Of a stretch of 34,066 nt of DNA, positions 4,238 to 12,166 are shown piece after piece. The notes beneath the pieces were generated by a model, which saw nothing but the letters and a program-made list of their open reading frames with translations, was not told the DNA's origin and did no database searches. A program made the translations under genes and the position numbers. The DNA is taken from positions 1 to 34,066 of the IMG/VR virus record IMGVR_UViG_3300015373_000023. One strand, given 5' to 3'. The stretch comes from a virus. Numbering within the stretch: the first letter of the stretch is position 1; the number at the start of each line of letters is the position of its first letter.

Positions 4238-4420
4238 TTAAACAAGTTTACGATATCCAGCTTTGCGAAGATCATCTTGAAGTGCTTTTAGTGTTTCTCG
4301 TGAACCACTAACTGTTGCGGGTTCAACATGAATAGTTTCTTTAAATTTTTCCCGCATTTCTTCAATTTCTTTCAACGGATGAATCTCGCTGAACAGTTGA
4401 GCTTCGGGGCTTACTTCCAT
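4238..4420 (-). CDS. Hypothetical 60-residue protein
   Basis: A charged, largely helical protein (HPLKEIEEMREKFKETI, TLKALQDDLRKAGYRKLV). No family recognised. It starts at an ATG at 4418-4420, just before the stop of the secreted lysozyme-like gene, and is followed after 8 nt by the 57-residue gene. Confidence 0.65.
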   Translation of the reverse strand: MEVSPEAQLFSEIHPLKEIEEMREKFKETIHVEPATVSGSRETLKALQDDLRKAGYRKLV

Positions 4421-4421
4421 A

Positions 4422-4904
4422 TCACACTCCGCACTTCAGTCGTGTGTTTGGCCATGGTCCGAAACCACGACCCGAGTAATATGCCCTCATAGCTACGGCC
4501 ATCTGAATGAATGGTGGCCAATTATCAGCTGTACCCAATGAATTTAGGAATTCTCTACCATAGGCGCGCTGGAAGTCCATATCCATTTGCATTCCGCCGT
4601 AATAGCCATTCCCGGTCCGAGCATTCCATCCGGCTTCAAAGCTATGAATGCATAGAAATGCGCGTGTAACTCCACCACTACCGAAACTTACTCTCTGACG
4701 ATTAACCTGTCTATGAATTTGTAGTGTGCGTCCTCGAGCATTTGCGTCCTTACGAGCTTGGACTGCCCGTTTAGCCCACCACTTAGCGGTTTTCCCTTGA
4801 TAGGTCGCACTAGGATATGTGGGTTCTGCCGTTGCTGTCGTCGTTACCATCACTAAAACAAGAATAATGATCGAAGCGACGATTATGGCGGTCAGAAACT
4901 TCAC
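4422..4904 (-). CDS. Secreted Rpf/lysozyme-like muralytic protein
   Basis: This 160-residue protein has an N-terminal membrane or signal segment (about residues 4-22) followed by ATAEP, a possible signal peptidase site near Ala26. The domain from about residue 80 has the pattern of resuscitation-promoting factor and transglycosylase-like lysozymes: CIHSFEAGW with the probable catalytic Glu90, GNGYYGGMQM at 99-107, then NWPPFIQMAVAMRAYY and GFGPWPNT. It would cut the glycan backbone outside the membrane, complementing the NlpC/P60 peptidase 1 kb downstream. The start is GTG at 4902-4904 with an AGGAGG site. It could act in lysis or in remodelling the wall for DNA entry. Confidence 0.8.
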   Translation of the reverse strand: MKFLTAIIVASIIILVLVMVTTTATAEPTYPSATYQGKTAKWWAKRAVQARKDANARGRTLQIHRQVNRQRVSFGSGGVTRAFLCIHSFEAGWNARTGNGYYGGMQMDMDFQRAYGREFLNSLGTADNWPPFIQMAVAMRAYYSGRGFGPWPNTRLKCGV

Positions 4905-5036
4905 AATAAAAGCCTCCTACTGGGGGTCAGGATTGACGGCCGCGAATATAACACCTGGGATAGATGGTGGACTCCTATTCCGCCGTCTCTACGTCACGGA
5001 GTCAAGTTTTTGAGTAACGCAGCGATGGGGAATCAC

Positions 5037-5076
5037 GTGTCTGCTATAAGGTTAGACAGGTTCGAATAACAGTCAC
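5037..5076 (-). ncRNA. Hairpin element
   Basis: 5037-5047 pairs with 5066-5076 over 11 positions, with one mismatch and one G-U wobble that exists only on the minus transcript. The loop holds TTCGAACC. It is the last well-defined hairpin before the leader of the lysozyme-like gene. Confidence 0.45.
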
Positions 5077-5084
5077 CATACCCT

Positions 5085-5141
5085 CTCACGTTTGCCTAAT
5101 GAGGATCGTCCCGACCTCCTATCCTCACCCTGTCCCGTGAG
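5085..5141 (-). ncRNA. Conserved hairpin motif, copy 1
   Basis: CTCACG at 5085-5090 pairs with CGTGAG at 5136-5141. On the minus strand the element runs CTCACGG, an inner TGAGGAT/ATCCTCA hairpin, then TTAGGCAAACGTGAG. The last 15 nt are identical in the second copy at 5289-5331, while the inner hairpin differs in sequence but is still paired. Conserved ends with a covarying middle are a good sign of a functional RNA. No known class was recognised. Confidence 0.6.
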
Positions 5142-5150
5142 CTGAAAATT

Positions 5151-5228
5151 GAAGCTGGTAGGATTCCTACTAAGCGGGCTTGTCCACCCGAGGCGATTCT
5201 TATTCTATTCGGTCACCCTACCAGCTTC
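5151..5228 (-). ncRNA. 78-nt element closed by a perfect 12-bp stem
   Basis: GAAGCTGGTAGG at 5151-5162 pairs perfectly with 5217-5228. The interior can fold into a CGGG/CCCG hairpin. Its size and closed base recall a tRNA-sized RNA, but there is no T-arm or anticodon arm, so I do not call a tRNA. It lies between the two copies of the CTCACG motif. Confidence 0.55.
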
Positions 5229-5233
5229 ATAAA

Positions 5234-5287
5234 TGGCATCGCGTAGCCGAGTGCGTTCGAGCGGCTCCATGACGGCCTACCATGCCA
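5234..5287 (-). ncRNA. 54-nt hairpin element
   Basis: TGGCAT at 5234-5239 pairs with ATGCCA at 5282-5287, and the inner AGCCG/CGGCT forms a perfect 5-bp hairpin. It is adjacent to copy 2 of the CTCACG motif. Strand is assigned from neighbours; function unknown. Confidence 0.45.
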
Positions 5288-5288
5288 A

Positions 5289-5331
5289 CTCACGTTTGCC
5301 TAACGGCGGTGCCACCGTCCCGCTCCGTGAG
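5289..5331 (-). ncRNA. Conserved hairpin motif, copy 2
   Basis: CTCACG at 5289-5294 pairs with CGTGAG at 5326-5331. The minus strand reads CTCACGGAGC, an inner GGTGGCACC-type hairpin, then TTAGGCAAACGTGAG, identical at the end to copy 1 at 5085-5141. It begins 11 nt after the stop of the 53-residue gene. Confidence 0.6.
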
Positions 5332-5341
5332 CTTTCTTGTA

Positions 5342-5503
5342 CTACTGAGGGTCGATGATCTTGTAGCCGACCCGCTCCAGCATCTCCCGGAGCTCCGCCT
5401 TGTCCTCCGGCGTCAGCTCCTTCATCTCGGAGATCTCGAGCTTGCGGTCAGGGCCGAAATAATCGATCATGGCCTTGACCAAAGTCATCTCCTTCGGCTC
5501 CAT
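5342..5503 (-). CDS. Hypothetical 53-residue helical protein
   Basis: Sequence features: MEPKEMTLVKAMIDYFGPD, then a charged helix LTPEDKAELREMLERVGYKI. It has an excellent ribosome site (GGGGAGGTGA) before the ATG at 5501-5503. It is visibly more GC-rich than its neighbours, which may mean recent acquisition. It is followed directly by the hairpin region. No function recognised. Confidence 0.72.
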   Translation of the reverse strand: MEPKEMTLVKAMIDYFGPDRKLEISEMKELTPEDKAELREMLERVGYKIIDPQ

Positions 5504-5525
5504 AGTCACCTCCCCTCAAAATTGA

Positions 5526-5762
5526 TTACTTAGCGAAATGCCAGGTCACACCGAGATTCTCGCCCTCTTCTCCGCTAGGCTCGCGGTGAGGAATGTCGCC
5601 CTCGTCGTTTACAGCAGCGAAAGATGAAGTTCCGTTGTCATCAAACATGATCATCTCGCCATGCTGAAACGACAATCCTTGTACAGGCTTCTGGAAAACT
5701 AGGGCGTTGTGATTCTTGCCGTCGTTATAGACGACACGATATACTGCAGTCTTTCCGTCCAC
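5526..5762 (-). CDS. Hypothetical 78-residue beta-rich protein
   Basis: A small protein with alternating hydrophobic and polar residues (AVYRVVYNDGKNHNALVF) and an acidic turn region. No family recognised. Its ATG overlaps the end of the 106-residue gene (stop at 5762), so the two are coupled. Confidence 0.7.
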   Translation of the reverse strand: MDGKTAVYRVVYNDGKNHNALVFQKPVQGLSFQHGEMIMFDDNGTSSFAAVNDEGDIPHREPSGEEGENLGVTWHFAK

Positions 5763-6082
5763 TATGTAGACTCCTCTACTAGATTGAAGTTTGCCTGGAA
5801 AGCCTTAGTCGTGTAGACCTTGTAGCCTCGTTCTGTGTACAGAATCCAGTCTCCCACAAACGCCTTTGTCTGCCTAGGATTCTTCGGATTATGAACCCGA
5901 ACGTGAATATACTGCTTCGTAGGCTGGACATCCTGGGATCTATCAACGGGAGACTCGTCAATATTGCCAATCTCGCCGAAACACCATCTCGCAATATCGG
6001 CGAAATTCTCCTCAGTCACCTGAACAGCATCCACGAATAGTGGCTTACGAACGTACTTTGTGGTAATGCTCGTGTTCTCCAT
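5762..6082 (-). CDS. Small phage protein with GDWI motif
   Basis: A 106-residue protein. The C-terminal VGDWILYTERGYKVYTTKAFQANF matches the general pattern of a widespread small phage protein family (GDW-I followed by a Y/F-rich strand and F-x-x-x-F/Y), related in style to PGDYG proteins. The N-terminal half begins with a KPLFVDAVQVTEEN strand. The function is unknown. It follows the 34-residue membrane ORF and is coupled to the 78-residue gene. Confidence 0.75.
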   Translation of the reverse strand: MENTSITTKYVRKPLFVDAVQVTEENFADIARWCFGEIGNIDESPVDRSQDVQPTKQYIHVRVHNPKNPRQTKAFVGDWILYTERGYKVYTTKAFQANFNLVEEST

Positions 6083-6087
6083 AGTTC

Positions 6088-6192
6088 CTATTCTTCGCTC
6101 CGGTTGCGAGTTATACCAAGGCCATATCCAATTAGGAGACTAATTAGAACTACAAGAGCTGTTACGATAACTGTGACAATAATCCCGATCAT
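6088..6192 (-). CDS. 34-residue single-pass membrane peptide
   Basis: Nearly the whole product is one hydrophobic helix (MIGIIVTVIVTALVVLISLL, then GYGLGITRNRSEE). The ATG at 6190-6192 overlaps the TGA of the 36-residue ORF as ATGA. A longer reading from TTG at 6307-6309 in the same frame exists (73 residues), but the coupled ATG start fits the neighbouring overlaps better. It could be a holin-like or inhibitor peptide; that is speculation. Confidence 0.55.
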   Translation of the reverse strand: MIGIIVTVIVTALVVLISLLIGYGLGITRNRSEE

Positions 6193-6299
6193 GATTCTCG
6201 TCCTACCCAAGCCCATTCGCCCCAACGAGCATAATCGCTCCATCGAAGCGATGTCCAAAGACACCAAGGGCAATTCTCGGCTAGGAACAGAGTGATCAT
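6189..6299 (-). CDS. 36-residue tryptophan-rich ORF
   Basis: This short ORF starts with an ATG overlapping the TGA of the ssDNA-binding-like gene (ATGA at 6296-6299) and ends with an ATGA overlap into the 34-residue membrane ORF. The product has a CPWC pair and six tryptophans (WSDYARWGEWAWVGRES). Two perfect ATGA junctions argue for real translation, although the ORF is very short and uses a different frame from the alternative 73-residue reading. Confidence 0.5.
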   Translation of the reverse strand: MITLFLAENCPWCLWTSLRWSDYARWGEWAWVGRES

Positions 6300-6769
6300 G
6301 ATTGATCAAGTTCTGAATATTTCAACTCCAGAGGATCTTCTTGGATTGTTACATAGAGACTCTGAAGATATGCTTTGATTCCGCTCTTGTCGTTGACCGT
6401 CCAGGCATACGGACTAACGATCAAATCTACATTGATGATATCCGCCCAATCAAGCATCTCGATTTGACCTTCATCAATGTTCGTCCTTCCACGAGACGTG
6501 ATCAGGACGATACGCGGCGGGCGGCCTTTGAAGTTTACCGAGATGGGCAAATATGCCTGCGGTTCTTCTCTTCCTGCGTCTGCATCTTCTTCGCGAGGGC
6601 GCAACCACTTAACGTTCCAACCATCGGCAGCCATGTCTTCGGCTGTCTTGTCATCGAGAAGTACGGCGAAATTTCGATCACCTTCACGATTGTACTGGCC
6701 TTCTTTCCCAGCAAAATTACGAAAGATGATCCGAACACCCTCCATCAAAACCGTGTTATCCCTCGGCAT
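6296..6769 (-). CDS. Probable ssDNA-binding protein
   Basis: A 157-residue protein. The segment VRIIFRNFAGKEGQYNREGD followed by NFAVLLDDKTAEDMAADGWNVK, then YLPISVNFKGRPPRIVLI and VDLIVSPYAWTVNDKSGIKAYLQSL, matches my memory of a phage protein family annotated as single-stranded DNA-binding and rich in beta strands. It would coat ssDNA for the helicase-primase-polymerase encoded just upstream in the operon. The assignment is from recall and context, not from a unique motif. The gene is coupled by ATGA to the next ORF. Confidence 0.6.
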   Translation of the reverse strand: MPRDNTVLMEGVRIIFRNFAGKEGQYNREGDRNFAVLLDDKTAEDMAADGWNVKWLRPREEDADAGREEPQAYLPISVNFKGRPPRIVLITSRGRTNIDEGQIEMLDWADIINVDLIVSPYAWTVNDKSGIKAYLQSLYVTIQEDPLELKYSELDQS

Positions 6770-11445: not shown

Positions 11446-12166
11446 TTCGATCGAGGCCTAGCATTTCCTCTTCGTAACTCGCCGGGGATCGGCAAATCTC
11501 CATCTCCAACTCCAGCTTCTGGTTACGAACGAACACGACATCGATGTCGTCTGATCCGTGACCAAACCTGAGGTTGTCCTTACCGACAACTTCCTGAGCA
11601 TGAGGAAGCGGTCTACCGTCCTCGTCGCAAAGAACGTCGTCACCGGCATAATAGGTGTAGGTCACCTTTGAATATCCGGCTTCTGATTCGTTGAACTCAT
11701 CCTGATGGATGATGTAAGGCACTTCTGGATCTCGAGCTCTCAACTCAAGAGCATAGTCCCAGCCATCATCCTTCGACTTTCCTCCATCGTAGGTGACTAC
11801 CGGAGGCGCGCGGAGAGGTTCCTGAACAGGAACTGGAGGTCTCGTCGGTCGAGGTGGCTCTTCGACTTCGACAGCTGTCGAATATCCTCGCTCCTCTACG
11901 AGTTCTTCGACGGAAGGCTTCTGCCGAGCCTGATAAGCCTCTCGAATCTTCTCGACTTCCTCTGCACTCTCCTTGAAGGCTTCGGCTCGGATCTTTTCCT
12001 TATTGAACCGATAACCCCAATAGAACCCCAATGCTGCGCCAATTACCATCCCTCCAAGAACATATCCAACAGCCGACGTGTTGATTTTCCTTGTCGCCTG
12101 GGCAACCTCTTCGAGATTGGTCGCGACTTCTTCCACGACTCCTTCTACAACACCTTCAACGGCCAT
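11426..12166 (-). CDS. Membrane-anchored 246-residue protein
   Basis: The N-terminus is an acidic helix (EGVVEGVVEEVATNLEEVAQ), followed by a membrane helix around residues 32-52 (VGYVLGGMVIGAALGFYWGY), a coiled charged region, a proline-rich linker (PPRPTRPPVPV) and an acidic soluble domain with aromatic strands. The glycine-zipper-like helix is typical of proteins that associate in membranes. It sits with the DUF6353-like gene 9 nt upstream, so they may form one complex. No family recognised. Start with AAGGAG five nt upstream. Confidence 0.7.
   Translation of the reverse strand: MAVEGVVEGVVEEVATNLEEVAQATRKINTSAVGYVLGGMVIGAALGFYWGYRFNKEKIRAEAFKESAEEVEKIREAYQARQKPSVEELVEERGYSTAVEVEEPPRPTRPPVPVQEPLRAPPVVTYDGGKSKDDGWDYALELRARDPEVPYIIHQDEFNESEAGYSKVTYTYYAGDDVLCDEDGRPLPHAQEVVGKDNLRFGHGSDDIDVVFVRNQKLELEMEICRSPASYEEEMLGLDRNDSATD

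Follow-up and report, generated by a model that had tools for sequence, protein, structure and literature searches.

Relation to described RNAs

The ZTP (pfl) riboswitch is built from tandem hairpins, the internal-loop region of the first pairing with the loop of the second, and the guanidine-II (mini-ykkC) riboswitch consists of two tandem hairpins in loop-loop contact. Kissing loops are also found in the phi29-type packaging RNA, which is phage-encoded. GOLLD and ROOL are structured phage RNAs with kissing loops whose function is not established (PMC12286853).

The locus described here lies in a 34,066-nt stretch of viral DNA (the window; IMG/VR record IMGVR_UViG_3300015373_000023) and holds two copies of an element, RNA A. 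The evidence strongly supports RNA A being a conserved, previously uncatalogued folded RNA of ~100 nt, whose two hairpins pair loop to loop. In layout it recalls the ZTP and guanidine-II riboswitches, and like GOLLD and ROOL it is a phage RNA with kissing loops, but it belongs to none of them. With ZTP (RF01750) it shares the two tandem hairpins and the pairing of an internal-loop region to a loop; it differs in having no Rfam match, other conserved sequence and unrelated downstream genes. With guanidine-II (RF01068) it shares tandem hairpins in loop-loop contact, but again there is no Rfam match, the pairing is of 5-7 bp and is made through large loops, and there is no consistent downstream gene. 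The phi29-type packaging RNA (RF00044) is likewise a phage RNA with kissing loops, and the loops of RNA A could in principle pair between molecules; however, this Rfam family is not matched either, and the window phage has a primase-polymerase fusion and not the protein-primed replication of the phi29 type. GOLLD and ROOL, phage-borne and with kissing loops as RNA A is, are single large RNAs of about 650-800+ nt, often near tRNA islands, whereas RNA A is ~100 nt. Neither of their Rfam models matches in the window, and the 86-131 nt of RNA A fall below the >600 nt criterion for such RNAs. No family of Rfam 15 reaches its gathering threshold anywhere in the window, permissive Rfam scanning over 4850-5400 and two homologous regions yielded chance-level matches or none, and no description of RNA A was found in open-licence papers.

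The RNA region and its two copies of RNA A

The window derives from a tailed phage. The main genes, among them those for the tape measure, distal tail, primase-polymerase fusion and helicase, are on the minus strand, and no tRNA is present. The polymerase shares 60-62% identity with its counterparts in Gordonia (Deejayvirinae) and Rhodococcus (Pepyhexavirus) phages, and 52-57% with those in phages of Arthrobacter, Streptomyces, Microbacterium and Curtobacterium. The RNA region is a 436-nt gap between two minus-strand ORFs. The upstream one is small (MEPKEMTLVKAM...IDPQ, 5341-5511), its stop at 5341 preceding copy 1 of RNA A by ~9 nt; the downstream one (4422-4904) has a weak transglycosylase match (PHROG 29757, E 2e-4). 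Adjoining the region on the same strand, at 5762-6082, is the gene for a 106-aa protein with no assigned function (PHROG 35556 and 14977). This protein is mostly 79-95% identical over ~56 related phages and is a good clade marker. The island itself (4935-5332) runs RNA A, RNA B, RNA A, a hairpin and a weaker closed element.

The initial annotation had reported a hairpin motif with shared ends and a variable inner stem, present twice. Both copies indeed begin, on the minus strand, with GCTCACGG (at 5332 and 5142) and finish with the 15-mer TTAGGCAAACGTGAG (at 5289 and 5085). The 15-mer is identical in the two and has no other exact match in the window; even at up to three mismatches the known copies are its only two sites there, with 0.83 expected by chance. 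The inner stems differ in sequence and both pair. The extent of the motif has to be revised: the CTCACGG...TTAGGCAAACGTGAG hairpin is real, but is just the 5' half of an RNA of ~86-131 nt. Similarly, of the two further closed elements that the copies were said to flank, the region 5151-5228 proves to be a separate RNA family, whilst 5234-5287 is not separate but forms domain 2 of copy 1. Overlooked at that stage were this second domain, the pseudoknot between the domains and the distinctness of the family at 5150-5229; the second domain of copy 2 (5028-5083) falls outside the annotated range of 5085-5331.

Copy 1, a two-domain kissing-hairpin RNA with homologs in 27 other contigs, occupies 5234-5332 (minus strand) and scores 115 bits with the covariance model R1, a score that is not independent as copy 1 went into building R1, and 104 bits with R2. 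Domain 1 (5289-5331) is closed by P1 (CTCACG, 5326-5331, with CGTGAG, 5289-5294) around the variable P2, and folds at -23.4 kcal/mol (z -3.6, no shuffle as stable). Domain 2 (5234-5287) is closed by P3 (TGGCAT, 5282-5287, with ATGCCA, 5234-5239), with P4 inside. The pseudoknot, for which the evidence is the family-wide permutation test given below, joins GAGCGG (5320-5325) to CCGCTC (5259-5264) in the apical loop of domain 2.

Copy 2 (5028-5142, minus strand) has a divergent domain 2. It was not used to build R1 and was recovered blind by that model at 56 bits (E 2.4e-7); R2 gives 68 bits. Its domain 1 (5085-5141; P1 5136-5141 with 5085-5090, P2 TGAGGAT/ATCCTCA) folds at -20.3 kcal/mol (z -3.6, again with no shuffle as stable), and P3 of its domain 2 (5028-5083) pairs 5078-5083 with 5028-5033. 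Here the pseudoknot strands are GACAGG (5129-5134) and CCTGTC (5055-5060), so that relative to copy 1 both strands have changed in sequence and complementarity is kept.

Distribution of RNA A

The search proposed in the initial annotation, for the 15-mer with a CTCACG partner in other phages, was productive: homologs were obtained and a covariance model was built. A scan of viral contigs with the bare 15-mer found 15 loci, with the real motif in two only (L003 and L013); the others were chance matches, as was a further candidate, L019. Both L003 and L013 have the CTCACGG partner and also keep the sequence that follows the motif, GGGTATGGTAGGCCGTC…GAACGCACTCGGCTACGCGATACCC. Since this conserved sequence is the closed element at 5234-5287, the unit has two domains. 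Further scans with the second half and with parts of the whole unit added members, and R1, run on the window and on 67 loci that code for relatives of the adjacent 106-aa protein, yielded 26 copies, window copy 2 included.

R1, R2 and two more scans together gave a final set of 31 copies, representing 27 distinct sequences. They come from 28 IMG/VR records of a single phage clade, one or two per record, and every copy is in gene-sense orientation. The records are of uncultivated viruses akin to phages that infect soil actinobacteria. Of the 56 loci with the 106-aa protein at 79% identity or more, at least 26 by our own count derive from contigs that bear RNA A. The copy in L122 is placed differently from the others, in the part of the genome upstream of the polymerase operon. 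Covariance searches at E up to 5 found RNA A in none of 11 loci with a more distant 106-aa protein and in none of 12 cultured relatives. Among 84,980 bacterial and archaeal species, scans with exact patterns, which divergent copies would escape, gave no match; a BLASTN search of 50,697 phage records with the island as query likewise gave none, and a structural descriptor run over all loci gave two apparent chance matches and no new member.

Structure and covariation

The base of hairpin 1 is P1, fixed at 6 bp; next come an internal loop with a GAGCGG-type 5' strand and a GGCAAA-type 3' strand, and the optional extension P2, which varies in sequence and length across the family and is missing from two members. 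Hairpin 2 begins 1-3 nt later and consists of P3, a small G/GYG internal loop, P4 and a large apical loop. P1 is 100% paired, with double changes in four of its six pairs; its variants CTCACG, CTCATG, CTCTAG, CTCCAG, CTTACG and CTCACA each come with their own complement. P3, also of 6 bp, is 98.8% paired and has double changes in all six pairs. Pairing is 98.8% and 96% in P4, and 76.8% at the base of P2. Overall, 92.3% of cells pair, against 75.9% in shuffled alignments and 26-51% in slid controls.

The earlier reading of the motif as a structural RNA is strongly supported by double compensatory changes in 22 of 28 pairs (120 cells, against 35 in shuffles). With such changes present and with copies in other virus records, both of the observations named beforehand as telling against that reading (conservation without paired changes, absence outside this genome) are contradicted. 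The eight strongest of ~5,000 column pairs all fall within the nested helices, three of them at E<0.05 under a tree-based null custom-written for this analysis; the covariance-model alignments are fitted to the nested structure, which favours nested helices, and the pseudoknot is absent from the models. The lengths of 86-131 nt show no triplet bias, which argues against coding.

Over all pairs, G·U outnumbers A·C by 40 to 7 on the gene-sense strand, so it is this strand that carries the structure. A DNA-level element (an origin, packaging or recombination site) that looks RNA-like by symmetry only would suit a sequence that is restricted to a clade and repeated inside a genome, but this G·U excess, the invariable gene orientation and the maintained pseudoknot pairing make it highly improbable.

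The loop-loop pairing spans 5-7 bp and connects the apical loop of hairpin 2 with the 5' side of the internal loop in hairpin 1. Besides the two window pairings there are AGTGG/CCACT (L003), GACGG/CCGTC (L013), AGCAGG/CCTGCT (L042), AGCGAG/CTCGCT (L074) and GGCCGAT/ATCGGTC (L051). Column-level support for the pseudoknot is weak, owing to indels and conservation, and the claim is borne by an alignment-free permutation test in which each loop is paired with its own or with another member's partner. Own-partner pairing averages -10.8 kcal/mol and re-paired -8.9, with none of 20,000 permutations as good, though related sequences are not independent in this test. With one member per distinct loop (n=16) the means are -10.3 and -7.5 kcal/mol (sd 0.5). 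The pairing should hold the two hairpins side by side; in the two members that lack P2 there are just two plain hairpins kissing through their loops.

RNA A is thus a new and well-supported class of RNA, for which there are a covariance model and a loop-loop pseudoknot open to testing, in a clade that has Gordonia and Rhodococcus phages among its closest cultured relatives. About 20 of its positions are near-invariant. One subgroup conserves P4, the internal loop and part of the loop of hairpin 2, but these drift in the others, which leaves the putative binding core uncertain.

Genomic context and possible functions

On its 5' side RNA A starts 6-20 nt past a stop codon or directly after another RNA, and its 3' end is usually 14-30 nt ahead of a ribosome binding site and start codon. 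The genes that follow are unrelated (lysozyme-like proteins, an 82-aa membrane-like protein, a 78-aa protein and others), and even for the two commonest of them RNA A is directly upstream in only 4 of 9 and 4 of 12 homologs. After window copy 1, L044 and copy 2 of L041 there is another RNA and not a gene. Placement ahead of unrelated genes or of other structured RNAs makes gene-specific control unlikely. This weighs against a ligand-sensing riboswitch for the next gene, a role that would otherwise suit the size of RNA A, its ZTP-like pseudoknotted two-hairpin layout, its conserved unpaired positions and its leader position. The genes downstream do not form a consistent set, a given gene can have homologs with RNA A and others without it, no Rfam riboswitch family matches, no terminator-like site was found in 4400-6400, and inspection by eye found no consistent case of ribosome-site sequestration; we therefore regard a riboswitch as unlikely. 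A self-cleaving ribozyme that cuts the operon transcript is more doubtful still. The compact pseudoknotted fold, the conserved loops and the location between cistrons would be in keeping with one, as many ribozymes share this look, but no Rfam ribozyme matches and no candidate cleavage site was identified.

An action in cis that is indifferent to the gene would accommodate the context better. The pseudoknot might stop 5'-3' decay (RNase J) or mark processing sites, and so shield or insulate the following cistron. The spacing from stop codon to ribosome binding site, kept in most records whichever gene follows, speaks for such a block, as does the location inside operons with no recognisable promoter or terminator found nearby. 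It accounts poorly for the succession of RNA A, RNA B and RNA A in the window with no gene between, for the other copies that are followed by an RNA, and for the homologous downstream genes that manage without RNA A; moreover, the near-invariant positions are more than plain hairpin protection requires. A cis-acting block is the leading alternative, though less probable than action in trans.

With middling confidence, and on a ranking drawn entirely from context, RNA A is most likely an autonomous trans-acting RNA module derived from operon mRNA. Autonomy is suggested by the unrelated genes or other RNAs that follow, the homologs of the commonest downstream genes that do without RNA A directly upstream, the separate position of the L122 copy, the one or two copies per record and the islands of distinct closed RNAs. 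RNA A may be cut out of, or persist from, the polycistronic phage mRNA as a compact, nuclease-resistant RNA that would act in trans, its conserved core recognising some protein, RNA or metabolite of the host or the phage; the variable P2 would be a dispensable spacer. The ending of RNA A 14-30 nt before a start codon in most records, like a cis leader, counts against action in trans, as does the drift of the conserved core outside one subgroup. So does the failure to find a recognisable promoter or terminator nearby, which means that a separate small RNA would need processing. If RNA A does act in trans, it would offer a direct route toward phage RNA effectors.

Other structured RNAs of the island

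RNA B (5150-5229, minus strand) is a second new RNA family, distinct from RNA A. In the window a 15-bp closing stem surrounds the core TGACCGAA...CGGG..CCCG...GTAGGA, with a fold z of -5.3. Homologs with closing stems of 11-14 bp are found in L041 (8682-8753), L061 (13756-13830) and L077 (7686-7762). The stem sequence differs from phage to phage (11-15 bp) and the core is kept, MAFFT alignments being poor at the 3' stem. Two smaller minus-strand elements come from the lowest-energy fold: a hairpin read by eye right after RNA A copy 2 (4989-5022) and, last in the island, a possible closed element GACGGC...GCCGTC (4935-4987), which is weak (z +0.9 for 4905-4985).

Two further families occur in relatives. 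Family C, ~80-145 nt and closed by TTAGTCTCCAG/CTGGAGACTAA, is present in L041 (9592), L042 (8876), L086 (8927), L087 (8809) and L097 (4447); its inner sequence is common to most of these, and it is often immediately upstream of RNA A. Family D, a shared TTCGGAGGGGCAGCGGTAG... element, follows RNA A in L044 (~4390-4500) and RNA B in L061 (~13835). Several relatives without RNA A have gaps of 150-870 nt in the corresponding region, as delimited by a crude ORF caller. At least some phages of the clade therefore have entire intergenic regions taken up by several different structured RNAs, which protein-centred annotation misses. More speculatively, and with a rather low probability, these phages may carry a toolkit of unrelated compact RNAs (A, B, C and D; pseudoknotted or long-stem) that are kept in islands, released from operon mRNA and active in trans. 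If so, the RNAs could be, for example, decoys of host defence proteins or signals, which would make the islands the RNA equivalent of small clusters of anti-defence genes.

In L057 (~11790-12045) the leader of the 82-aa gene's homolog lacks RNA A and carries instead another RNA element, apparently a closed one. L003 and L013 have in common an element downstream of RNA A, GCCYGTGGAGAG...CTCTCGCGACRGGC, followed by a T-rich stretch that is possibly a terminator. A large gene, seen in the Gordonia phages L101 (11245-12306) and L105 (27399-29855), is annotated as 'RNA-dependent RNA polymerase' in some relatives and as 'helix-turn-helix DNA binding' in others.
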